A stretch of 64,000 bases of DNA from Acidobacteriota bacterium (GTDB lineage Bacteria > Acidobacteriota > Terriglobia > Terriglobales > Acidobacteriaceae). The position numbers were made by a program, and so were the translations under genes. Shown one piece after another: positions 8,495 through 12,485 of the stretch; position 1 is the first letter of the stretch; every line of letters starts with the position of its first letter. The DNA is taken from contig JABDBE010000012.1 in the NCBI GenBank assembly GCA_013288805.1, positions 1 to 64,000 of the forward strand, written 5' to 3'. The notes beneath the pieces were generated by a model that saw nothing but the letters and a program-made list of their open reading frames with translations, did no database searches and was not told where the DNA came from.

Positions 8495-9031
8495 CTATTT
8501 GGTCACGACGCCACAGGCAATGCGGGCGCCTGAGTTTCCCGACGGATCAGTCTTCATGTCATCCGCGTCGGCATGAATGACTAGCGCAGTTCCGCCGTTA
8601 CTGAACAGCGAGTGGCTGTTGCTTCCATCTCCCAGAACCACGTCACTGTCAGTTAGCTTGAGCTTCGCCGTGCCTTGGCCGGTGACAGTGAGGTTCATCA
8701 TGTCACCCGCGTGATGTCCATCGGGACTCTGAAGGCCGTGCTTTTTTCCGTCTGGATTGAAGTGCGGTCCTGCAGACTTGAAATCGGGGCCATCGCACTT
8801 CGCGGTCTGATGAAAATGGATCCCGTGCGTCCCCGGCGGCAGGCCGTGCAGGTCGAGTTTGAGCCCCACACCCGTGCCCTTCGAACCGGTTCCGCTTTCC
8901 GATATCGTAATTGTGCCCACGCTATTGCCCTGGGCATCTTTCATCTGGACCACAGTTTTGGCCGCGCTGGCAAGCGACCAGAAAATTATCGCGAACGTTA
9001 CGGCGGCAGTGAACAATAGGTTGTTTTTCAT
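8495..9031 (-). CDS. sodC: Periplasmic Cu/Zn superoxide dismutase
   Basis: A 178-residue enzyme that dismutates superoxide in the periplasm. A signal peptide covers about residues 1-23. Copper ligands His72 and His74 (GIHFH), bridging His90 (GPHFNP) and His153 (VIHADADD) are present, as are zinc ligands His98, His107 and Asp110 (GHHAGD). The structural disulfide pair is Cys79 and Cys173. All catalytic ligands are intact. The ATG at 9031 is chosen because it begins the signal peptide; the frame is open further upstream. Confidence 0.96.
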   Translation of the reverse strand: MKNNLLFTAAVTFAIIFWSLASAAKTVVQMKDAQGNSVGTITISESGTGSKGTGVGLKLDLHGLPPGTHGIHFHQTAKCDGPDFKSAGPHFNPDGKKHGLQSPDGHHAGDMMNLTVTGQGTAKLKLTDSDVVLGDGSNSHSLFSNGGTALVIHADADDMKTDPSGNSGARIACGVVTK

Positions 9032-9137
9032 GGCCGAATTATAACCAAGCTGCAGGCCGCGCGCCATTTCCTCGCGACATGCGCCAAGCGCGTTTTGGTT
9101 TACCTTGGCGTGGCGTTCGCATGAGACAACGGGAACT

Positions 9138-11657
9138 TCACAAGTTTTGCATTTTCCTTTGCAGTTCTCGCGCAATCCACTCGGGGTCGCTTCCCGACTC
9201 GAATTGAACTGGTGCGCCGATCGTTACTTTGATCTGACCGGGACGCGTGAATTTCCTCCCTGCCTGCTTCACCTCGAATAATCCATCAATACGCATAGGC
9301 ACGATCGGAATTTGCAGGTTGTTAGCTAATAGTCCAATGCCCGCGCGAAACGGAAGCAACTTGCCATCGGTTGTATGTCGGCCCTCGGGAAAGACGAGTA
9401 CGCTGTAGCCGCGATCGACGGACTCTCCGGCGTAGGCGAAGCTCTCGCGGAATCCCGCTTCGCGCGGCAACGGAAAAAGATTGAGCAACGATACACCGAG
9501 AGCCCACTTTACGCGGTCGTAGGCACGCCCAACAAAACCTCGCATATTAGGCGGAGTGCGCAGGATCTCGAGCGCCTCACCGCCGGTCGCGATTGCCAGC
9601 TTGTGCCGCAGCCGAGCGGGAAGAGCGGTCAGGACGAATCCTGGATCGACATCGCCAATATGATTGCAGATGACGAGCACCGGCCCGCGCACTCCGTGCA
9701 AATTCTGTCGGCCCTCAACGCGAGGCCATCCCAAGAAGAATACGGCCGGCCGCAACAACAGGTAATGCACCGCGAGACGGATCCACGTAATCGGCCAGCG
9801 CTGCACCCAGCGCGGATAGTGGTAAGGCGTTCGCGGCGGAAGCTTGCCCTGCAACATCCGCTCCAGCTCACCGACCGTATTCACGGACGCAAACCGAGTC
9901 TCGCTGAGATCAATCTGATATCGATCTTCGAGCGCGCTCAGTAACTCGACGCGGTCGAGCGAACCAAGGTTCAGCTCAGACTCGAGCTTCGCACCCGGCG
10001 CAAGCTGCGATGGCGAACGTTTTGTGATTCGCGCAATCAATTCAGCCAGAGGACTCGAAGGCATCTGGTCAAGAGATTTCTGCGCCAGCTGAGCTTGCAC
10101 GGCCTGCTGAATTGCGTTTCGGAGCGGCTTCTGTGTCGAAGTGCGCGGAAAATCTTCCTCTGGCCATACGACCCAGTGGTTCAGACGCTGATACTCGGCC
10201 AGAGACTCGTTTGCGCGCTTCACCACAGGTTCAGGATCGGCGTCACTATTACGAAGAATGATCGCTGCGCAAGGTTCCGCGTTTCCATTGCGCGGCAGCG
10301 CAACCACAACTGCGTCTTTCACCTCTGGCTGGCAGCGCAGCGCCGCTTCCAGATCGTCGGGATAAACGTTCATTCCCGCCGGCGTCACGATAACGTCTTT
10401 TTTTCGTCCCTTGAAATAAAGGTTGCCCTCGGCATCGAGTTCGCCTACATCGCCAGTGCGATACCAGCCGTCATCGGTCGCAACAGAACGCAGCTCGTTT
10501 CCATTCCAGTAACCCGCGGCGACTCCGCCGCCGCGCACCAGAATTTCTCCATCTTCCGCGAGTTTTATTTCGCGTCCCGCCAACACTTTCCCGATCGAGC
10601 CTTTGCCCAGCCGAAAAGGATGGTTCAGGCTGATGAGCGAAGTGGTTTCAGTGAGGCCATATCCTTGTATGGCGGCGTAGCCGAGGCGTCCCCAGAATTC
10701 TTCGGTGTCGCGGTCGAGCGCCGCCCCGCCTGAGATGAAGGCCCAGAATTTCCATCCAAACTGACGATGGATGCGGCGGAAGATCCACCAGCGATGGAGA
10801 AAATGTTTACCCTCTGCAGCGTGAAACGCCTGCCGGAACTGTTCCGCACGACCTTCGCCTTCGAGATCGCGTTCGATCTTCTCCTTCAGAGATTGCAACA
10901 CGCGCGGCACCGCGACCAATACTGAAACGCGCTCGCGATGAATCGTTCCGATTACTTCCGCTGGTTTAAATGTGTTCTGAAAAATCACCGTTCCGCCCAT
11001 GAGCTGAGGCAGAAAGATTCCAAGAAATTGCCCGAACACGTGGCTGAGCGGCAACAAGTTTAAGAAGCGAACCGGGTGCACCCATCGCTCGTATTTAAGA
11101 TATTTCCGAATCTCTAATTCCAATGGTGCAATGTTCGCGAGAACATTGCCATGTGTAATCACAACTCCTTTGGGCTCGGCGGTAGTGCCAGAAGTGAATA
11201 CGATCTCCAGCGTGTCTGCCGTTTCGATATCGACGGCGGGATACGCCGCGGTCGAGTGTGCAGCCAATGCTGCCGGCAACTCCTCCAAAGTGAGGGCTGT
11301 GATCGACTGTTGCACGTGGTCACGCGAGCACACCTGCAACTTGGCGTCGACCTGTTGATGCACTCGTAAAGCGAAGTCAGGGCTTGCCACGTCGTCCATG
11401 GGCACGACCACGACGCCACGCAAAGCGCATCCCAAGAACACTGCAACCCATTCGGCCGAATTCGGGCCCCATAGCAAAATCCTTTCGCCCTTCGTAATCG
11501 AACGAGCATCCAGTTCGCGGGCAAATTGGAACGCGAGATCCGCAACCTGCCGGTATGACCAGCGCGCGGTGCGATATCCGTGAGGCTGCACGTAGGCAGT
11601 CTCGTTCCCTCTTTGCAGAAAATGGTCGAGATATTCGAAAAGCGAGCGGCGCTCCAC
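9138..11657 (-). CDS. Acyl-ACP/CoA synthetase - ACP - acyltransferase fusion
   Basis: An 839-residue protein with three modules. Residues 1-510 are an AMP-forming fatty-acyl ligase, with the P-loop-like TSGTTAEPKG near 155-164 and later GYGLTETTS and YRTGDVGELD. About 530-605 is an acyl-carrier domain with the phosphopantetheine serine in NLGSLDRVEL. About 625-839 is a PlsC-type acyltransferase with CNHIGDVD (the HX4D motif) and FPEGRHTTDG. The layout resembles E. coli Aas (acyltransferase plus acyl-ACP synthetase) but the order is reversed and an internal ACP is added. A role in activating free fatty acids and transferring them to lysophospholipid is an inference. The start is a GTG behind a TAACAT box. 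Confidence 0.88.
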   Translation of the reverse strand: MERRSLFEYLDHFLQRGNETAYVQPHGYRTARWSYRQVADLAFQFARELDARSITKGERILLWGPNSAEWVAVFLGCALRGVVVVPMDDVASPDFALRVHQQVDAKLQVCSRDHVQQSITALTLEELPAALAAHSTAAYPAVDIETADTLEIVFTSGTTAEPKGVVITHGNVLANIAPLELEIRKYLKYERWVHPVRFLNLLPLSHVFGQFLGIFLPQLMGGTVIFQNTFKPAEVIGTIHRERVSVLVAVPRVLQSLKEKIERDLEGEGRAEQFRQAFHAAEGKHFLHRWWIFRRIHRQFGWKFWAFISGGAALDRDTEEFWGRLGYAAIQGYGLTETTSLISLNHPFRLGKGSIGKVLAGREIKLAEDGEILVRGGGVAAGYWNGNELRSVATDDGWYRTGDVGELDAEGNLYFKGRKKDVIVTPAGMNVYPDDLEAALRCQPEVKDAVVVALPRNGNAEPCAAIILRNSDADPEPVVKRANESLAEYQRLNHWVVWPEEDFPRTSTQKPLRNAIQQAVQAQLAQKSLDQMPSSPLAELIARITKRSPSQLAPGAKLESELNLGSLDRVELLSALEDRYQIDLSETRFASVNTVGELERMLQGKLPPRTPYHYPRWVQRWPITWIRLAVHYLLLRPAVFFLGWPRVEGRQNLHGVRGPVLVICNHIGDVDPGFVLTALPARLRHKLAIATGGEALEILRTPPNMRGFVGRAYDRVKWALGVSLLNLFPLPREAGFRESFAYAGESVDRGYSVLVFPEGRHTTDGKLLPFRAGIGLLANNLQIPIVPMRIDGLFEVKQAGRKFTRPGQIKVTIGAPVQFESGSDPEWIARELQRKMQNL

Positions 11658-11764: not shown

Positions 11765-12331
11765 CTATTCACGCCCGACGCCCAGAGAATCTGCCACGCG
11801 ATTGATGTAGTTGAACCACGATGCGATGAGTGTGATCTGCAAAATTGCTTTGTCGTCGAATCCCGCGCCCCGCAGGCGGTCATGATCATCTTTCCAGACT
11901 TTGGTAGCGTCTTTGGTAAGTTTGACCACGTAGTCCAGCATCGCGCGCTCTTGCTCGGTGATGGGAGCGGTCGTGTAGTCCCTCTTCAACGCTTCGATGA
12001 GTCCTTCATCCAACGTTATTCTACGCAGAAACTCTGCGTGTGATTCGATTCAATACACACACCGGTTGGTGACAGAAACCATCGTGGTGATCAATTCGTG
12101 CTGCCGGCGACTGAGAGGCAAATCGGGCGACATGAGCGTGCCAAAAGTCGCGAAGGCGTGATAGAGCGCTTCCGGAATCAGGCTGTGGGAGGCAACGATC
12201 GAAGAACCACCGCCTTCGACAGGATGCACCGGGGTGGCGTACTCCTTGGGATAGAGCAATTTCTGGTCTTCCATGGCTTTGCGCAGCTTCTCATCCGCCT
12301 CAGAAAGAGGAACGGTGCGGATCCACGTCAT
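11765..12331 (-). CDS. CMD/AhpD-like peroxidase-related selenoprotein (UGA = Sec)
   Basis: A 188-residue carboxymuconolactone-decarboxylase-family enzyme, the group that contains AhpD, a disulfide-dependent alkylhydroperoxidase. The frame is interrupted by an in-phase TGA at codon 94 (12052-12050). Reading through it gives [27 protein letters not shown], which completes the AhpD motif exactly: Glu79-x11-Cys91-x2-U94-x3-His98, with Sec in place of the second cysteine. The downstream half ([34 protein letters not shown]) is typical of the family. A perfect hairpin starts 10 nt after the TGA. The ATG at 12331 has GGAGG about 10 nt upstream. Without readthrough both halves would be non-functional fragments. 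selA, selB and selC are not in this window. Confidence 0.87.
12023..12039 (-). promoter_or_regulatory. Candidate bacterial SECIS hairpin
   Basis: On the minus strand, 10 nt after the UGA codon, ACGCAGA and TCTGCGT form a perfect 7-bp stem around the loop GTT. Counting the U of UGA as 1, the loop G and U are positions 21 and 22, close to G23/U24 of the E. coli fdhF SECIS. The bulged U of fdhF is not seen. Confidence 0.65.
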
Positions 12332-12485
12332 AAAAAACTTGCCTCCAATCGCGGGTCTTGCCTTACAATTCGTGGCCAGCAAACCTACATTGAAGCGGTG
12401 TGGTGTGCCAATACCCAAATTGTATTAGTCGGGCTTGGCGGACAGATTCATTTGGCGGAAATCCCCCGCGCGGAGGATCGAGTCG

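Follow-up and report, generated by a model that had tools for sequence, protein, structure and literature searches.

Known AhpD-like selenoproteins

AhpD-like selenoproteins with CxxU were reported in 2005, as 27 sequences in Sargasso Sea data (PMC1088965), which bears out the bacterial precedent given in an earlier note on this DNA. AhpD-like 1 and 2 selenoproteins are described from ocean sampling (PMC2398784), and a 2026 review (PMC13188914) has an entry for TIGR01926 with CxxU. The relay of the family is known from M. tuberculosis AhpD (Glu118, Cys130, His132, Cys133, and His137) and from PA0269 of P. aeruginosa, where tyrosine occupies the third place (PMC3141380).

The gene described here lies on the minus strand of the window (the whole 64,000-nucleotide stretch analyzed), a strand that the earlier note had not given. 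As in the known AhpD-like selenoproteins (PMC1088965, PMC13188914), its product belongs to the CMD/AhpD family and has CxxU with the predicted selenocysteine (Sec) second; a SECIS-like hairpin lies right after the UGA, and Cys homologues exist. Because CxxU AhpD-like selenoproteins have already been reported, the gene adds a member to a known selenoprotein family and leaves existing knowledge of selenoproteins unchanged. The subgroup to which it belongs differs in having its own conserved N-terminal stretch of ~45 residues, and occurs here in Acidobacteriota as well as in MAGs whose labels are Gemmatimonadota and a few other phyla; we found no description of this subgroup in the open-access literature searched.

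The relay of Glu, Cys, aromatic/His, Cys(Sec), and His is common to M. tuberculosis AhpD, PA0269, and our protein, where it consists of Glu79, Cys91, Tyr93, Sec94, and His98, with Tyr93 as in PA0269. Unlike in those two enzymes, the second cysteine is replaced by putative Sec, Sec94 corresponding to Cys133 in the M. tuberculosis enzyme, and the N-terminus is longer than that of PA0269. The NF041238 model (AhpD_rel_CFYUT, alkylhydroperoxidase-related (seleno)protein) also has a related AhpD domain with CxxU, but it is 357 positions long and our protein matches just its C-terminal part; membership was rejected at 56.3 bits against a cut-off of 175.

One reading frame through an in-frame TGA

The gene and its signals are as follows:

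11765..12331, minus strand: predicted AhpD-like/peroxidase-related selenoprotein gene, 188 aa, Sec94 (TIGR01926; CMD domain PF02627)
12050..12052, minus strand: in-frame TGA, codon 94, read as putative selenocysteine (from translation, TGA in relatives, and TGC in one close Cys orthologue)
12342..12346, minus strand: ribosome-binding site GGAGG, 10 nt 5′ of the ATG

Read from 12331 to 11765 on the minus strand with TGA as U, the gene gives 188 residues with a single TGA (U94), followed by a TAG stop. Translation thus upholds the earlier note on the two same-frame halves divided by one TGA, on the fused length, and on the TGA as codon 94, and the Sec reading restores the AhpD motif exactly as it had claimed (E79-x11-C91-x2-U94-x3-H98). 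The standard code yields two ORFs instead (12418..12050 and 12013..11765, both on the minus strand), so that gene callers would return two fragments, as had been foreseen. The ribosome-binding site said to precede the upstream half only is indeed confined to it; no GGAGG-like site was found 5′ of the possible starts of the downstream half. A plus-strand reading of the interval was rejected, the open frame there being a chance one without meaning. No promoter-like sites were found at the locus, and its sole terminator-like site is no more than chance would give.

In the alignment, the domain begun in the upstream half carries on into the downstream half, and the TIGR01926 match, which covers residues 46–185, spans the TGA. 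This continuity, together with the TGA at the same codon in all loci fetched (see below), means that the split-frame pattern is not a chance one. We put the probability that the feature is one intact gene encoding an AhpD-like selenoprotein at about 0.97. It is a well-supported selenoprotein from uncultured soil Acidobacteriota, and we infer that UGA is recoded to Sec at position 94.

Conservation of the TGA and a Cys-coded orthologue

A same-family survey of 300 genomes found an orthologue in 54 besides the window's own; the full-length ones are 68–86% identical and have one TGA each, while a few genomes have a fragmented, less clear match. Public genome contigs were also scanned and yielded 80 further loci (a set overlapping the same-family one), mostly from Acidobacteriota, with a few bearing the MAG labels Gemmatimonadota, Latescibacterota, and KSB1. 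Codon 94 is TGA in 110/110 fetched loci, which comprise 85 distinct sequences (both counts include the window's own). More TGA orthologues, with identity down to 63%, were found in a phylum-wide sample of 199 genomes, and distant homologues (28–42% identity) have either TGA or, as in L131, L136, and L138, TGC at the aligned position. The E-x11-C-x2-C/U-x3-H motif is invariant among 27 aligned relatives. Frames of homologues run on past the TGA, a point that the earlier note had wanted checked.

A dead gene, in which a Cys codon has mutated to TGA or a base has been miscalled, would agree with the origin of the window in a fragmented MAG of 203 contigs and with the split under the standard code. 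The same TGA in many independent assemblies, however, makes sequencing error very unlikely, and a pseudogene is refuted by conservation before and after the TGA alike, the downstream half being under strong protein conservation; the genome also holds the Sec machinery. We consider the chance of either negligible. The whole subgroup keeps Sec, as read here, nearly without exception.

The one full-length orthologue without an in-frame stop in the phylum-wide sample is L163 (61% identity), and here the suggestion to look at codon 94 in Cys homologues is answered directly: the codon is TGC. In addition, Cys91 is replaced by threonine (TRYC), so that L163 is a one-Cys form, the first cysteine of the motif being missing. 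That L163 has lost Cys91 but not residue 94 points to the latter as the essential attacking residue. The hairpin is absent from L163, and in its genome, at 99% completeness, SelA has no match and SelB none that passes the cut-off. Since L163 has Cys where the window's protein is read as having Sec, and its genome lacks Sec machinery, the two proteins form a useful pair for testing the contribution of Sec to AhpD-type chemistry.

The predicted SECIS hairpin

The hairpin, on which the earlier note is silent, was predicted from its placement and conservation:

12023..12039, minus strand: predicted bacterial SECIS hairpin ACGCAGA-GUU-UCUGCGU, 7 bp

It starts 11 nt 3′ of the TGA and has the apical loop GUU, with the loop G at +18. 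Codons 99–102 (GCA GAG TTT CTG) are the same in 85/85 distinct sequences, while alanine and leucine elsewhere in this stretch use several synonymous codons, and the neighboring codons vary synonymously. Frozen synonymous sites in the hairpin core are what would be expected of an in-frame SECIS. Random synonymous recoding gave a 7-bp stem with a G within the first two loop bases in 11 of 20,000 cases, a figure that is indicative, the criterion having been set after the hairpin was seen. In free energy the 55-nt stretch does not fall below dinucleotide shuffles (z −0.5), and folding energy was rejected as support; with this energy unremarkable, the case for the hairpin rests on conservation and placement, not on stability. 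The stem is nearly invariant and therefore shows no real compensatory covariation.

Within this bacterial family, a further and more distant clade of TIGR01926 (L129–L148, for example L132, L140, and L143) likewise carries TGA at its active site. The conserved stretch after its TGA is a different one (TACTTCCTGCGNGTTCAGGGAGC in several members), and this clade apparently uses a different SECIS.

Selenium machinery in the host genome

The host genome, a MAG with 203 contigs and a size of 3.53 Mb, is 54% complete. All four components that the earlier note had proposed to search for are found in it: profile searches gave matches for SelA (540 bits, contig C15), SelB (329 bits, C99), and SelD (361 bits, C113), and the tRNA-Sec scores 71.7 bits with the anticodon TCA (C24). 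The SelB gene (L002 and L006) is split by a short N run and a frame change, most simply and probably a scaffold-gap artefact or assembly flaw. At the N-terminal catalytic site of SelD (L017, 1366–2451, minus strand), KAAGUASK, the frame contains a TGA, so that SelD appears to be a selenoprotein itself, of a known Sec-containing type; a second TGA near its C-terminus is probably the true stop.

The locus combines several features of a bacterial selenoprotein: an in-frame UGA where homologues have Cys, a hairpin just 3′ of it with a small apical loop containing G, and selA, selB, selC, and selD in the genome. In the same family, SelA is above the cut-off in 52 of the 54 carriers of the gene versus 98 of the 245 non-carriers (Fisher p 1e-15, uncorrected for relatedness), and the two carriers without a qualifying SelA, G266 and G293, both have SelB above the cut-off.

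Insertion of another residue (Trp or Cys, through near-cognate suppression) or the making of two separate proteins would be compatible with the sequence alone. The TGA, however, coincides exactly with the codon of the catalytic Cys, the hairpin codons are frozen, presence of the gene tracks SelA, and the Cys orthologue occurs where Sec machinery is missing, while a separate downstream protein would have neither a ribosome-binding site nor the first half of the motif; both possibilities are very improbable. In the preferred Sec reading, SelB carrying Sec-tRNA(Sec) would recognize the hairpin after the UGA, and Sec would be inserted at position 94.

Fold and proposed chemistry

The fused protein matches PF02627 (CMD domain) and belongs to TIGR01926 "peroxidase-related enzyme" at 116.7 bits against a cut-off of 81.8. 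An AlphaFold2 model built from 27 relatives (mean pLDDT 79) has the all-helical AhpD-like fold, and its top matches in the PDB are the AhpD-like 6k40, 3c1l, 2oyo, and 2pfx. The nearest solved structures are of the AhpD/peroxidase-related group, with 24–30% identity and E down to 4e-8. The match to M. tuberculosis AhpD is weak (E above 0.05), as is that to the debrominase Bmp8 (6ohi, 6ohj; E about 1e-3).

Within the AhpD helix-hairpin active site, Sec94 would take the place of whichever CxxC cysteine lies closer to the relay histidine, the second one. By analogy with the family, Sec94 most likely attacks the hydroperoxide, whereupon the selenenic acid would be resolved by Cys91 to a selenenylsulfide and a thiol donor would regenerate the enzyme, with Glu79 and His98 serving as the presumed proton relay. 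The label "peroxidase" given in the earlier note derives from family and motif, which suggest it, and a hydroperoxide is the probable substrate.

The weak Bmp8 match makes reductive dehalogenation a live rival for the substrate: a Sec protein of AhpD fold might do another job than hydroperoxide reduction, as a Bmp8-like reductive dehalogenase or as a thiol-disulfide adaptor, and the AMP-binding/acyltransferase neighbor gives no pointer to an AhpC partner. Set against this are the closeness of the AhpD/peroxidase-related structures and the complete Glu-Cys-Sec-His relay, and we regard such a job as rather unlikely.

Neighborhood

Next to the gene lies

9138..11657, minus strand: AMP-binding/phosphopantetheine/acyltransferase fusion, 839 aa, next gene downstream (domain matches)

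Of 76 testable loci, 38 have a relative of this fusion on the same strand no more than 3 kb downstream; in 37, for the most part more distant loci, none was detected, and the linkage is therefore lineage-limited. Genes on the opposite strand intervene between the selenoprotein gene and the fusion in L051 and L054, which means that co-transcription is not general. A shared operon was accordingly rejected as the usual arrangement.

The acyltransferase neighbor hints at a lipid link. It is conceivable, though we think it improbable, that this nearly Sec-only subgroup is dedicated to reducing lipid or acyl hydroperoxides, or to another acyl-linked redox reaction, in partnership with the acyl-activating/carrier/acyltransferase fusion; our literature search found no description of such a role for AhpD-like selenoproteins.

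The second gene downstream, again on the minus strand (window 8495–9175), encodes a Cu/Zn superoxide dismutase, relatives of which were found in just 5 of the 110 fetched loci.
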